From positions 1-33,120 of the forward strand of contig JAFQDM010000034.1 in assembly GCA_017416065.1 (NCBI GenBank): a stretch of 33,120 nucleotides of DNA, in the 5' to 3' direction. Under the pieces are notes generated by a model. That model did not search any database. It was not told the origin of the DNA and worked only from the letters and a program-made list of their open reading frames with translations. Numbering within the stretch: the stretch's first letter is position 1; every line of letters starts with the position of its first letter. This document shows, one piece after another, positions 20,983-32,881 of this stretch. The translations under genes were made by a program, and so were the position numbers. This DNA is from Ruminococcus sp. (lineage in GTDB: Bacteria > Bacillota > Clostridia > Oscillospirales > Acutalibacteraceae).

Positions 20983-21166
20983 GAGGCTATGCCTCAACTA
21001 AGTTTGCCCGAAGGGGCAAGTAAAATTATCTTCCATAGTGAAGTTGTCCTGCGGACAGCGAAGTTTGCTTCGCAAGTGAGCTGTGCAAACTTAACTTCAC
21101 TTTTTCCAAAAAAATTCACTGTGGGTTACTGCAACTTCACTTCAAATCAAAGATTTGAAACTTCAC
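20983..21166. repeat. Mosaic hairpin array with GTGAAGTT/AACTTCAC spacers
   Basis: GTGAAGTT occurs at 21038 and AACTTCAC at 21093, 21133 and 21159, in both orientations. Between and beside them lie unrelated palindromes: GAGGC...GCCTC (20983-20995), TTGCCC...GGGCAA (21004-21019), GTCC...GGAC (21046-21056), GCGAAG...CTTCGC (21058-21073) and TTCAAAT...ATTTGAA (21141-21159). The construction resembles 6849-6950 but with a different spacer. No gene is seen in this gap apart from the start of the hflX leader. Confidence 0.7.
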
Positions 21167-28726: not shown

Positions 28727-28755
28727 TTGACATTTCAGTTTCGATGTAATAATAT
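28727..28755 (+). promoter_or_regulatory. Promoter of the T-box operon
   Basis: TTGACA (28727-28732), 17 bases, TAATAT (28750-28755). It is the strongest promoter match in the window. Transcription should start near 28762, just ahead of T-box stem I. Confidence 0.8.
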
Positions 28756-28761
28756 AATTAA

Positions 28762-29046
28762 CAAATTTGAATATCACAAACAACGACTATGATGAAGACG
28801 GTCGGAGCGTGAAGCTATCCAGAGAGTTGTCGGTTGGTGCGAGGCAACAGCAGATCTTTCCAAAGACCTATCACTTCTGAGTCGGAGGACCGAAAGGCGC
28901 AGGCTGAGTAGACTCCTTCCGTAATGCTGCGTAAAGGCAAAGGGCTTGTTCGAGCTCGGTAAGTGACGGATATTTTATCCGTAATTTGAGTGGTACCGCG
29001 GGTTATTTAACTCGTCTCAAAGTTTTTCTTTGAGACGGGTTTTTTG
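28762..29046 (+). promoter_or_regulatory. T-box riboswitch, probable isoleucine (AUC) specifier
   Basis: The T-box proper (GTGGTACCGCGG, about 28990-29001) is followed by a terminator (29013-29022 with 29028-29037, then T7). Stem I folds by hand: CGACT (28784-28788) with AGTCG (28880-28884), a K-turn-like GAT/TGA, GAAG (28794-28797) with CTTC (28874-28877), then GGTC (28800-28803) with GACC (28865-28868). The 3' side of the specifier loop reads TATCA, so the codon before the conserved A is ATC (28870-28872), Ile. AGAGAG and GGTTGGTGCGAG mark the distal part. The bulge UGGU fits a tRNA ending ACCA, hence discriminator A as in tRNA-Ile. Uncharged tRNA should favour antitermination. Confidence 0.92.
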
Positions 29047-29103
29047 TTTTATTCAAATTCGTAACCATTACCCAAACTCATTATCTGAAAGGAGACAGCA
29101 AAA

Positions 29104-31404
29104 ATGGATTACAGTTTGAAAGAGGTCGCAGGCAGAATCAGAGGTCTGCGCGAAGCAAAAGGATACACACAGGAGGAGCTTGCAAAGCTCACCGGCGTAT
29201 CCCTTGAGGATTACAAGGTTCTTGAGGAGGGTGAAACCGACTTCAGCTTCACCTTCATCTACAAATGCGCAAAGGCCTGCGGCGTTGAGGTTGTAGACCT
29301 GCTTGAGGGAACAAGCACCACCCTCAGCTCCTTTGCCATCACAAGAAAGGGCGAGGGACTTAAGATCCTTAAAAAGCACGGTGTTGAGTACAACAACCTG
29401 GCACCCAAGTTCAAAGAAAAGCTGGCAGAGCCTTTCCTTGTTAAGTTCCCCTATCTGCCCGAGGAGCAGGATGCACCCATCAAGCTCAGCTCCCACAAGG
29501 GTCAGGAGTTCGACGTTATCGTCAAGGGCTCACTCAAGGTTCAGGTCGGCAATCATATAGACGTTCTAAACGAGGGCGACTCCATCTTCTACAACAGTAC
29601 CATCCCCCACGGTATGATCGCCGTGAGCGAGGGCGGCTGTGAGTTCCACGCAGTGGTTCTCAACCCTCAGGACGGACAGGTAAGCGAGGAATACCCCGAG
29701 GTTCCCTACACTCGCGCAAAGGCTGTGGAAAAGAAGGAATCAGACACCACCGTTGCAGACAACTTCGTTGAGTCCTTCTATGACGAGCAGGGCGTATTCA
29801 GCGGCATAAAGTTCAAGAACGACGACAAGTTCAACTTTGCTTTTGACTGTGTTGACGCCATTGCCGAAAAGACCCCCGACAAGCTTGCTATGATGTGGGT
29901 CGCAAACGACAAAACAGACAGAAAGTTCACCTTCAGCGATATGAAGAAATACTCTGCAAAAACCGCCAACTACTTTGAGTCCTTAGGCATCAAAAAGGGC
30001 GATACCGTAATGCTTGTGCTCAAAAGGCACTACCAGTTCTGGTTCTGTATGCTTGCTCTGCACAAGATCGGCGCAATTGCCATCCCTGCCACCAACCAGC
30101 TTGTTGAGCACGACTTTGCTTACAGATACAAGGCCGCAAAGGTAAAGGCAATCGTCTGCACCGCAGACGGAGAGGTATCTGCAGAGGCAGAGAAAGCCGC
30201 AGCAGAATTCCCCGGAATGCTCAAGATCCTTGTAGGAGGACAAAAGGAAGGCTGGAACGACTTCAACACAGAGATGGAGCGCTTCAGCACCCACTACTTC
30301 CGCAATGAAAACACCCCCTGCGGCAACGATCCCATGCTGATGCTCTTTACCTCAGGCACAACGGGCTATCCCCGCATTGCAACCCATTCCTACAAATACG
30401 CTCTGGGTCACTATCCCACGGCAAAGCATTGGCACAACGTAAAGCGTGACGGCCTGCACTTCACAATCTCTGACACAGGCTGGGGCAAGGCTCTCTGGGG
30501 CAAGCTCTACGGCCAGTGGCTGTGCGAGGCAGGTGTGTTCACCTATGACTTTGACAGATTCCACTCCGAGGATATCCTGCCCATGTTTGCAAAGTACGGA
30601 ATCACAACCTTCTGTGCTCCCCCCACCATGTACCGCTTCTTCATCAAAGAGGACCTTTCAAAATACGACCTTTCCTCCATCGAGTATGCAACCACTGCAG
30701 GCGAGGCTCTGAACCCTGAGGTATTCAATCAGTTCAAAAAGGCAACGGGACTCACCATCATGGAGGGCTTCGGTCAGACAGAGACCACTCTCTCCATCGC
30801 AAACTTTGTGGGCTCAACTCCCAGGATCGGCTCCATGGGCAGACCCAGCCCCCTCTACGACGTTGCGGTGCTTGACCCCGACGGCAACGAGTGCAAAACA
30901 GGTGACGCAGGCGAGATCTGCATCCGCACAAAGGACGGCGCTCCTTGCGGACTCTTTATCGGCTACTACCTTGACGAGGAAAAGACCAACGAGGTATGGC
31001 ACGACGGCTACTACCACACAGGCGACCAGGCAACCATGGACGAAGACGGCTACCTCTGGTACGTTGGCCGCATAGATGACGTTATCAAGTCCTCAGGCTA
31101 CCGCATCGGACCCTTTGAGATCGAGAGTGTTATCATGGAGCTTCCCTATGTTCTTGAGTGCGCAATCACTCCCGTGCCCGACGAGGTCAGAGGCCAGATA
31201 GTCAAGGCTACCATCGTGCTTGTTAAGGGACAAGAGGGCTCAGACCAGCTCAAAAAAGAGATCCAGGACTACGTCAAGACCCACACAGCACCCTACAAAT
31301 ACCCCAGAATCGTGGAGTTTGTGGATGAGCTTCCCAAGACCATCTCCGGCAAGGTAAGACGTGTGGAGATCCGCAAGAACGACCTGGAGAAAATGAACAA
31401 ATAA
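29104..31404 (+). CDS. XRE helix-turn-helix / cupin / AMP-forming acyl-CoA ligase fusion
   Basis: A 766-residue three-part protein. AAAGGAG precedes the ATG. Residues 7-61 are an XRE-type helix-turn-helix (RIRGLREAKGYTQEELAKLTG); about 105-187 are a cupin (HKGQEFDVIVKG, NEGDSIFYNSTIPHG); about 240-766 are an ANL-superfamily ligase with LFTSGTTGYP (about 413-422), GFGQTETT (about 555), YHTGDQA, GRIDDVIKSSGYRIGP and the catalytic lysine in SGKVRR near the end. It should adenylate a carboxylic acid and pass it to CoA. The overall look is of acetyl/medium-chain acyl-CoA synthetases, but the substrate cannot be read. T-box control by tRNA-Ile suggests a link to isoleucine or its precursors (inference). 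Confidence 0.9.
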   Translation: MDYSLKEVAGRIRGLREAKGYTQEELAKLTGVSLEDYKVLEEGETDFSFTFIYKCAKACGVEVVDLLEGTSTTLSSFAITRKGEGLKILKKHGVEYNNLAPKFKEKLAEPFLVKFPYLPEEQDAPIKLSSHKGQEFDVIVKGSLKVQVGNHIDVLNEGDSIFYNSTIPHGMIAVSEGGCEFHAVVLNPQDGQVSEEYPEVPYTRAKAVEKKESDTTVADNFVESFYDEQGVFSGIKFKNDDKFNFAFDCVDAIAEKTPDKLAMMWVANDKTDRKFTFSDMKKYSAKTANYFESLGIKKGDTVMLVLKRHYQFWFCMLALHKIGAIAIPATNQLVEHDFAYRYKAAKVKAIVCTADGEVSAEAEKAAAEFPGMLKILVGGQKEGWNDFNTEMERFSTHYFRNENTPCGNDPMLMLFTSGTTGYPRIATHSYKYALGHYPTAKHWHNVKRDGLHFTISDTGWGKALWGKLYGQWLCEAGVFTYDFDRFHSEDILPMFAKYGITTFCAPPTMYRFFIKEDLSKYDLSSIEYATTAGEALNPEVFNQFKKATGLTIMEGFGQTETTLSIANFVGSTPRIGSMGRPSPLYDVAVLDPDGNECKTGDAGEICIRTKDGAPCGLFIGYYLDEEKTNEVWHDGYYHTGDQATMDEDGYLWYVGRIDDVIKSSGYRIGPFEIESVIMELPYVLECAITPVPDEVRGQIVKATIVLVKGQEGSDQLKKEIQDYVKTHTAPYKYPRIVEFVDELPKTISGKVRRVEIRKNDLEKMNK

Positions 31405-31444
31405 TCTCCCAATAAGCACTCCGGCATAAAATAAGGTGAGCAAA

Positions 31445-32881
31445 GTGAAAAAGACCTACGTAACTTCTATGCCGAATCACATCGGTGCCTTTTTGAAGGC
31501 GAGCGAATGCTTTTCTGCTTTAGGCATCAACATCACCCGCGTAAGCTACAACAAAGCAGTTGATTCCCACACTTTGTTTATTGACGCAGAAGGCACCGAA
31601 AAACAATTGATGAAAGCCGACAAGGAGCTTAAGGATATCGGCTACCTGCAAAGCAACACAAGCAAAACAAGCATTGTATTAATAGAGTTTTGTCTTGAGG
31701 ATACTCCCGGCAGCGTAACCAGAATCCTGAAGCTCATCAATGAGTTCAATTTCAACATTTCCTACATCAGCTCTCAGGAAAACGGTACGGCTTATCAGCA
31801 TTTCAAAATGGGCTTATACGTCGATGCTCCGGATAAGATCTCCCGATTCTTAAAGGAAGCCGAGAAGCTTTGCAGGGTACGCGTAATAGACTATAACAGC
31901 TCCGAAAAGGTTTACGACAACAGCATTTTTTACAACACCTACGTCTTAGGCTTATCGCAGGTTATGAACTTGTCGGAAGCAGTCAGCCGCGAGCTTTTGG
32001 TGCACGTAAATCTTGCAATGCAGACTCTTGACGAGCAGGGGCTGTCACCGTACCGCACCTTTGACAGCATAAGCAAATTTGCAGAGCTCCTTGGAGCCTT
32101 TAAGGGAAAGAACTTCAGCCCTCGCATCAGTACTCACAGGGTAACGGACAACACGGAGATCATTCTTATTGAGCCTCCCTGCGGCAGCAACACCATCATC
32201 CTAAAAAGCAACGGCAGGGTGCTGTTTGTAGACAGCGGCTATGCCTGCTACAAGGACGAGATGCTTCGCGTGATAAGCAGGCTTTTCCCTGATTTTGACT
32301 CTATGGAAAAGACGGTTCTGGTCACCCATGCAGACGTAGACCACTGCGGACTGCTGCCAATGTTTGATAAGGTGATAGCAAGTGCCAAAACAGCGGCCTG
32401 CCTTGCAAATGAATATGAAGGTAAAAACGGATACAGAGAATCAAACCCTCTCCACAAGCCGTACATAAACATTTGCAAGATCTTAACCTCCTACAAGGCC
32501 CCGGACCCGAAAATCATCGTCTCCCCCTGGAAAAACAGAGAGGACCTGACAGAGCCCCTTACCCAGATTGGATTCTTTGATTTTGAAGAATTGCATTTTG
32601 AGGTATACGAGGGCAAGGGCGGACACCTGCCGGGAGAAATTGTGCTGATAGATTATTCGAACCATATCGCCATCACGGGTGACGTTTACATCAACACCCA
32701 CGGCCTTACCAAGGAACAGGCCGAGTACAACCAATACGCACCCATACTGATGACCTCTGTGGATACAGACCCGACGCTGTGCCTTAAAGAAAGGAATGCA
32801 ATAATGCAAAGGCTCGGCATCGGAAAATGGCAGATCTTCGGCTCTCACGGATTCAAAAAAGACTATTCGGTAAATATATAA
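31445..32881 (+). CDS. ACT-ACT-metallo-beta-lactamase-fold protein
   Basis: A 478-residue protein. The GTG at 31445 is chosen because AAGGTG lies 6 bases before it; an in-frame GTG at 31436 has no ribosome site. Residues about 3-70 and 77-150 are two ACT domains (LEDTPGSVTRILKLINEFNFNI cut: LEDTPGSV is the classical ligand turn), which normally bind amino acids. A helical region follows (about 160-225), then a metallo-beta-lactamase fold (about 235-475) with a near-complete two-metal set: His295, Asp297, Asp299, His300 in THADVDHCG, His394, Asp413 in TGD, and His468 in SHG. Asp297 replaces the usual second His. It lies 40 bp after the ligase, with no terminator between. TTA/TTG leucine codons are far commoner than in the ligase gene. 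The substrate is unknown; a thioester or ester is plausible. Confidence 0.85.
   Translation: MKKTYVTSMPNHIGAFLKASECFSALGINITRVSYNKAVDSHTLFIDAEGTEKQLMKADKELKDIGYLQSNTSKTSIVLIEFCLEDTPGSVTRILKLINEFNFNISYISSQENGTAYQHFKMGLYVDAPDKISRFLKEAEKLCRVRVIDYNSSEKVYDNSIFYNTYVLGLSQVMNLSEAVSRELLVHVNLAMQTLDEQGLSPYRTFDSISKFAELLGAFKGKNFSPRISTHRVTDNTEIILIEPPCGSNTIILKSNGRVLFVDSGYACYKDEMLRVISRLFPDFDSMEKTVLVTHADVDHCGLLPMFDKVIASAKTAACLANEYEGKNGYRESNPLHKPYINICKILTSYKAPDPKIIVSPWKNREDLTEPLTQIGFFDFEELHFEVYEGKGGHLPGEIVLIDYSNHIAITGDVYINTHGLTKEQAEYNQYAPILMTSVDTDPTLCLKERNAIMQRLGIGKWQIFGSHGFKKDYSVNI

Follow-up and report, generated by a model that had tools for sequence, protein, structure and literature searches.

A tRNA-Ile-type T-box leader ahead of a predicted 2-methylbutyrate:CoA ligase in Ruminococcus sp.

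What is a leader RNA with an isoleucine specifier doing ahead of an acyl-CoA ligase, and does the gene that follows the ligase belong to the same system? These questions are raised by a locus of Ruminococcus sp. (Acutalibacteraceae; assembly GCA_017416065.1, contig JAFQDM010000034.1, positions 1-33,120 of the forward strand). This whole stretch of 33,120 nucleotides is called the window here, and the features of the locus are collected in Table 1. An earlier note, made from the letters of the window, had proposed that a T-box controls a two-gene unit in which a sensor-fused ligase activates a branched-chain acid toward isoleucine and an ACT-linked hydrolase tunes the flux.

Table 1. Positions of the features of the locus in the window
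Feature	Position	Strand	Basis
Promoter-like -35 TTGACA / 17 / -10 TAATAT	28727..28755	+	consensus match only
T-box leader RNA (RF00230)	28780..29022	+	87.4 bits, E 1.1e-19, covariation
Specifier codon AUC (Ile)	28870..28872	+	covariance alignment; 32/32 close leaders
T-box UGGU, would pair with tRNA acceptor end	28991..28994	+	sequence
Intrinsic terminator-like stem, alternative to antiterminator	29009..29041	+	terminator-like site scan
ANL acyl-CoA ligase of MacsMa type fused to an XRE-cupin part; predicted to use 2-methylbutyrate	29104..31404	+	domains, NCBIfam, 3ETC, alignment
XRE helix-turn-helix domain (HTH_3)	29137..29298	+	domain match
Cupin domain	29485..29655	+	domain match
Gly461 codon; sole ligase-domain position found separating Ile- and Val-T-box ligases	30484..30486	+	alignments
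ACT-ACT-MBL protein; accessory, not generally conserved neighbour	31445..32881	+	ORF, Pfam, model, alignments

The leader RNA

The leader was matched by the full RF00230 model (positions 1-219). The T-box was absent from the list returned by a default Rfam scan of the window because its 87.4 bits fall short of the gathering score of 93, and a scan by E-value recovered it. In the covariance alignment, AUC and the A that follows it (28870-28873) are unpaired positions directly 5' of a CUUC strand, and the specifier that had been read from a hand-made fold is therefore correct. The UGGU sequence would match a tRNA with an A discriminator base. The terminator-like stem has 14 pairs and is the longest of the seven terminator-like sites in the region, where shuffled sequences gave 5.3.

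Leaders of close relatives (ligases at least 85% identical) were compared, with 32 of 35 used and three too short. AUC is invariant in all 32, and the named structure, comprising stem I, the antiterminator and the other helices, is 97.9% paired across them, while a control in which the structure was slid along the alignment is only 36.6 to 55.9% paired. Pairs in which both sides have changed number 11, compared to 4.4 in shuffles that ignore relatedness, and none of the 500 shuffles reached as high; one pair of the helix next to the specifier is A-U in 21 leaders and G-C in 11. Single-sequence MFE folding of the leader was unremarkable (z -1.0, with 37 of 200 shuffles as good) and did not recover the T-box fold. 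The leader thus contains a stem I with an unpaired specifier, a UGGN sequence, and an antiterminator with a competing terminator, and on the strength of sequence and covariation we regard this candidate as a real T-box of the tRNA-Ile type, as the earlier note had read it.

The same note had described a strong promoter. The consensus hexamers are present, but the region holds four promoter-like sites compared to 3.6 in shuffles, and the match is weak evidence when taken alone. Elsewhere in the window, positions 20995-21069 match Gut-1 RNA (RF01706) with 51.6 bits, the gathering score being 50.

The ligase and the branched-acid route

The 766-residue ligase has matches to HTH_3 (residues 12-65), Cupin_2 (128-184), AMP-binding (252-622) and AMP-binding_C (672-750), which bears out the XRE-cupin-ANL architecture described previously. 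The nearest solved structure is 3ETC (E 3e-204), with identity at 295 of 535 aligned positions (55%) over residues 223-760 of the window protein, that is, the whole catalytic part. 3ETC is the medium-chain acyl-CoA synthetase of Methanosarcina acetivorans (MacsMa); its preferred substrate is 2-methylbutyrate, a Trp (259) of its acyl pocket is critical, and it has a Gly where acetate enzymes carry a limiting Trp (PMC10455477). Trp443 and Gly557 of the window ligase stand at the places aligned with this Trp and Gly. The best NCBIfam family is MbcS (NF047394), at 450.6 bits against a cut-off of 850, and MbcS is selective for 2-methylbutyrate and isobutyrate (PMC10026030). The window ligase is of the MacsMa/MbcS type, yet outside the MbcS equivalog, and specificity for 2-methylbutyrate is predicted from its sequence.

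A ligase hit (E 1e-100 or better) is present in 91 of the 150 family genomes. In several of them (G007, G141, G081, and the C23 contig of the window genome) the XRE-cupin and ligase parts are two adjacent genes, which suggests a route by which the fusion arose. A second set, the best 80 of at least 587 relatives, contained 95 ligase ORFs, of which 91 had at least 330 nt of upstream sequence; 85 of these 91 have a T-box, with the specifier AUC in 71 and GUA in 14, and six have none, including the fusion ligase of Ruminococcus flavefaciens SAb67. The two sets overlap partly and their counts are not independent. The T-box counts of the 150-genome set are lower bounds, as mainly XRE-cupin hits and some hits to the ligase part only were taken, and in six cases (G040, G012, G143, G114, G142 and G133) the specifier was assigned by eye and entered in the tally by hand. 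One of its 48 T-box-ligase genomes (G059, UGGA) is, judged by eye, a chance match inside coding sequence.

A tree was made from 73 of 100 ligase rows, leaving out ORFs shorter than 400 residues and partial hits. These 73 consist of 42 with an AUC T-box, 20 with GUA, one with GUC, four whose specifier was missed by the search pattern, and six in which no T-box was seen. The ligases with a Val T-box group into a single clade (22 rows), separate from those with an Ile T-box (SH-aLRT 100 in a quick tree without bootstrap), and this clade includes G133, whose GUA was seen by eye. All 22 genomes with a Val-T-box ligase also carry an Ile-T-box ligase. The Val-specific paralogue is an addition to what the earlier note had seen.

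In many loci the genes follow the order Ile T-box and ligase, Val T-box and ligase, ATPase, vorB, vorA, vorC and ilvE, sometimes with leuA after them. VorB was found in 29 of 87 stretches. Among the best 80 of at least 587 relatives it was found in 16 of the 80 loci, 13 of which also have IlvE, and it lies within 6 kb downstream of all 14 GUA ligases and of 15 AUC ones. A search for nearby 2-oxoacid:ferredoxin oxidoreductases had been proposed along with the isoleucine reading, and VorBAC, a 2-ketoisovalerate:ferredoxin oxidoreductase, often with IlvE, is what is linked to the ligase in relatives. Across the 150 genomes, 77 have both ligase and VorB, 14 ligase only, 10 VorB only and 49 neither (odds ratio 27, p 5e-17, related genomes not being independent), and VorB is present in 45 of the 48 T-box-ligase genomes, the exceptions being G059, G037 and G064.

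In the window genome itself, VorB (537.1 bits, cut-off 399) and IlvE (507.6 bits, cut-off 307) are encoded on contig C23. The candidate run there (L140:1060-12024) consists of a Leu T-box (CUC), a leuA-like gene, a TIM-barrel/ANL fusion, ilvE, a nucleotide-binding protein, vorBAC, an XRE-cupin gene and a second ligase. A leuA-like gene lies within 4.5 kb upstream in 7 of the 34 close loci of the window ligase.

The explanation that we consider very probable is that the leader senses tRNA-Ile and so induces the activation of 2-methylbutyrate, from which isoleucine is made via reductive carboxylation. When isoleucine is short, uncharged tRNA-Ile would pair with the AUC specifier and the UGGU of the leader, and this pairing would stabilise the antiterminator so that RNA polymerase reads into the ligase gene. 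The ligase would then use ATP to convert 2-methylbutyrate from gut fluid to 2-methylbutyryl-CoA, which VorBAC, encoded on the other contig in the run that opens with the Leu T-box, would reductively carboxylate to 3-methyl-2-oxopentanoate. Amination by IlvE would yield isoleucine. The T-box, its specifier and their conservation, the enzyme family, the linkage in relatives and the failure to find IlvB, IlvC and IlvD are observed; the response to tRNA, the substrate of the ligase and the direction of Vor are what we infer from them. The earlier proposal of a branched-acid ligase working toward isoleucine gains comparative support from the identity to MacsMa, the Ile T-box and the linkage to Vor and IlvE.

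Several findings count against this explanation. VorB was found in none of the 34 close loci of the window clade, three of which have almost no downstream DNA, and the Vor of the window genome is on another contig. R. flavefaciens SAb67 and others lack the T-box, and IlvC was found in 17 of the 48 T-box-ligase genomes. There is also a threonine ammonia-lyase, which would be unneeded if isoleucine were made only from branched acids. Its gene, cut by the contig end, is preceded in the window genome by two consecutive T-box matches of 42.5 and 71.1 bits (G000:C25:37730-38164, L119:7731-8165), whose specifiers read by eye as CUC (Leu) and AUC (Ile).

Genes of Ilv enzymes were searched for in the same genomes. 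Of the 48 T-box-ligase genomes, 31 gave no IlvC hit, compared to 34 of the 102 others (p 4e-4), and neither did 19 of the 22 genomes with a Val T-box. The idea that IlvC tracks the ligase family as a whole was dropped: IlvC is present in 47 of 91 genomes with the ligase and in 38 of 59 without it (p 0.13), and only the T-box and Val-T-box subsets track. In six of nine genomes checked, none of the three enzymes IlvB, IlvC and IlvD was found; these six are the window genome, G074 (a congener rated 100% complete), G052, G118, G075 and G064 (71% complete). The other three are G056, which has all of them, G079 with IlvB, and G010 with an IlvD-like match. The window genome is 84.8% complete, and its gene absences are therefore weak evidence by themselves. 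Citramalate synthase was not found in any of the nine genomes at E 1e-60.

These results bear on two other readings of the ligase. A real T-box might instead control a ligase that primes branched-chain fatty acids, with isoleucine shortage serving as a proxy for scarce branched acyl-CoA; MbcS, the top NCBIfam match, feeds branched-chain fatty acids in Staphylococcus aureus (PMC10026030). We consider this very unlikely, as the pairs of Val- and Ile-T-box ligases share a gene run with VorBAC and IlvE, which are unneeded for membrane lipids, and as the absence of IlvC accompanies the Val T-box set. Hardly credible is a catabolic direction, in which branched 2-oxoacids are oxidised by Vor and the ligase takes care of the acyl-CoA side of amino acid fermentation. 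Vor enzymes are able to run in either direction, which would allow it, but induction by uncharged tRNA-Ile would switch on breakdown at times of amino acid shortage, AMP-forming ligases spend ATP, and IlvB, IlvC and IlvD are jointly missing from most of the genomes checked, including the one rated fully complete.

The downstream ACT-MBL gene

The ACT-MBL ORF was called from a GTG at 31436. In six of seven relatives, as judged by eye, GAGGTGA is followed a few bases on by GTG or TTG and then by AAA or AAG, and the GTG at 31445, which is 40 bp past the ligase stop, is therefore the likely start. No terminator-like site was found in the stretch between the two genes, in agreement with the earlier note, and a weak 6-pair site lies just within the ACT-MBL gene (31470-31487).

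An ACT domain (residues 82-145) and an MBL domain (248-417) exceed the Pfam cut-offs, and the MBL fold is supported; the first of the two ACT-like repeats previously described is seen in the secondary structure of the predicted model only. This model has a pLDDT of 72.8 from an alignment of 10 sequences, and its fold matches span several MBL activities. The ACT domain gives a sub-threshold match to ACT_AHAS_ss. Residues H298, D300, D302, H303, H397, D416 and H471 (numbered from the GTG at 31436) are the presumed MBL metal ligands; the MBL part has the motif HADVDH, and His397, Asp416 and His471 are kept in all aligned sequences that reach them. From its sequence the protein is perhaps a metallohydrolase that senses branched-chain amino acids, and hydrolysis of a thioester by the MBL part is a guess.

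The two-gene unit of the earlier note found little support. The ligase and ACT-MBL genes do occur together outside the strain, but ACT-MBL is directly 3' of the ligase in just 7 of the 31 close loci with at least 400 bp of downstream sequence and upstream of it in 1 of 34, and a conserved two-gene system was dropped as a candidate. Among the 150 family genomes, ACT-MBL was found in 11 compared to 91 for the ligase, at E limits that differ; it is directly downstream of the ligase in the window genome and G052, upstream in G064, and otherwise not adjacent to it. Copies elsewhere have other neighbours. A protein search of a plasmid collection returned two records of one archaeal (Methanosphaera) plasmid, on which the ACT-MBL homologue (L020:6001-7395) is 39% identical, and no ligase was seen in the annotated 13 kb, for which the gene table is incomplete.

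ACT-MBL could nevertheless be a needed partner that hydrolyses the thioester or tunes it in response to isoleucine, which would be compatible with the isoleucine route set out above. Its position in the window, in G052 and in the seven close loci would fit such a role, as would the sub-threshold ACT_AHAS_ss match and an MBL fold in which the usual ligand residues are kept. We consider the role unlikely given that most close loci lack the adjacency, that copies elsewhere and the plasmid copy stand in other surroundings, and that a hairpin, read by eye, separates the two genes in L152, L154 and L178. ACT-MBL is probably an optional passenger. The better conserved system is the T-box with the ligase, Vor and IlvE, not the ligase with ACT-MBL.

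Specifier codon, pocket residue and known systems

The ligases of the 22 Val-T-box rows were compared with 31 Ile-T-box ligases from outside the close clade of the window. The two groups are set apart at 13 positions, each with internal agreement above 75% on either side, and 12 of them lie in residues 5-106, which cover the XRE part and what follows it. The only one in the ligase part corresponds to Gly461 of the window ligase. The counterpart of Gly461 in an acetyl-CoA synthetase is the Val of its GWVTG motif, presumably an acyl-pocket residue. In two overlapping sets, Ala is found at this position under GUA or GUC in 14 of 14 and 21 of 21 ligases, and Gly under AUC in 71 of 71 and 39 of 40, the exception being G022 (Ala with AUC). 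Four further rows whose specifier the search pattern had missed agree with this rule by eye. Ligases that lack a T-box have Gly in some cases, Ala in some and Met in some, and the second ligase on C23 has Met. The residue change may have happened just once, where the Val clade branches off, and the counts of codon and residue are therefore not independent.

The bulkier Ala would suit a smaller acid. We think it probable, though with less confidence than we place in the isoleucine route itself, that the specifier names the amino acid that the substrate becomes: AUC with Gly461 would mark 2-methylbutyrate to isoleucine, and GUA with Ala461 isobutyrate to valine, so that the leader codon would predict the specificity of the enzyme and each branched-chain amino acid would have its own tRNA-tuned salvage line within one cell. 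Another T-box of the window genome (G000:C24:39478-39764, L003; 110.9 bits), with a specifier readable as UAC (Tyr), precedes a 545-residue ligase of the ANL family. This ligase may act on aryl acids and serve the salvage of tyrosine, and the correspondence may extend to aromatic acids.

A requirement for branched short-chain acids is long established in rumen and hindgut bacteria, and such acids are given to farm animals in feed. For this need of gut and rumen bacteria the present analysis puts forward candidate genes and a control by tRNA, and it lets the substrate be predicted from the codon of an RNA. It widens the range of gene kinds under T-box control, and it may aid the annotation of ANL ligases, whose substrates resist prediction. 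Among the top open-access papers listed, none joins T-boxes with the acyl-CoA ligases of this route, judged by title and beginning of abstract, and none mentions a T-box together with ferredoxin oxidoreductase, a branched-chain amino acid and a CoA ligase. Terms for acyl-CoA ligase and ferredoxin are absent from the main texts of PMC2494555, PMC3766115, PMC12452182, PMC7778990 and PMC7583486, and an unremarked supplementary listing is possible.

T-boxes and the carboxylation route are each known separately; what is new is the regulon and the correspondence between codon and pocket. The window leader shares stem I, the specifier, UGGN and the antiterminator/terminator pair with the RF00230 leaders of ilv-leu operons, transporters and aminoacyl-tRNA synthetases, whereas the gene under its control codes for an acyl-CoA ligase, with the salvage of a carbon skeleton as its predicted role. 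MacsMa resembles the window ligase over the ligase part and also has a Gly at the place of Gly461, but it is archaeal and its match leaves out the XRE-cupin part. MbcS of S. aureus is the top family match and acts on 2-methylbutyrate and isobutyrate, but it supplies branched fatty acids (PMC10026030), and the window ligase scores well below the cut-off of that family. In rumen fermentation isobutyrate is the precursor of valine and 2-methylbutyrate that of isoleucine, as stated in PMC7356843. In net terms the route proposed here equals this rumen pathway, in which branched-chain volatile fatty acids are carboxylated on the way to amino acids, and differs in that candidate genes and a tRNA-dependent control are now assigned to it.
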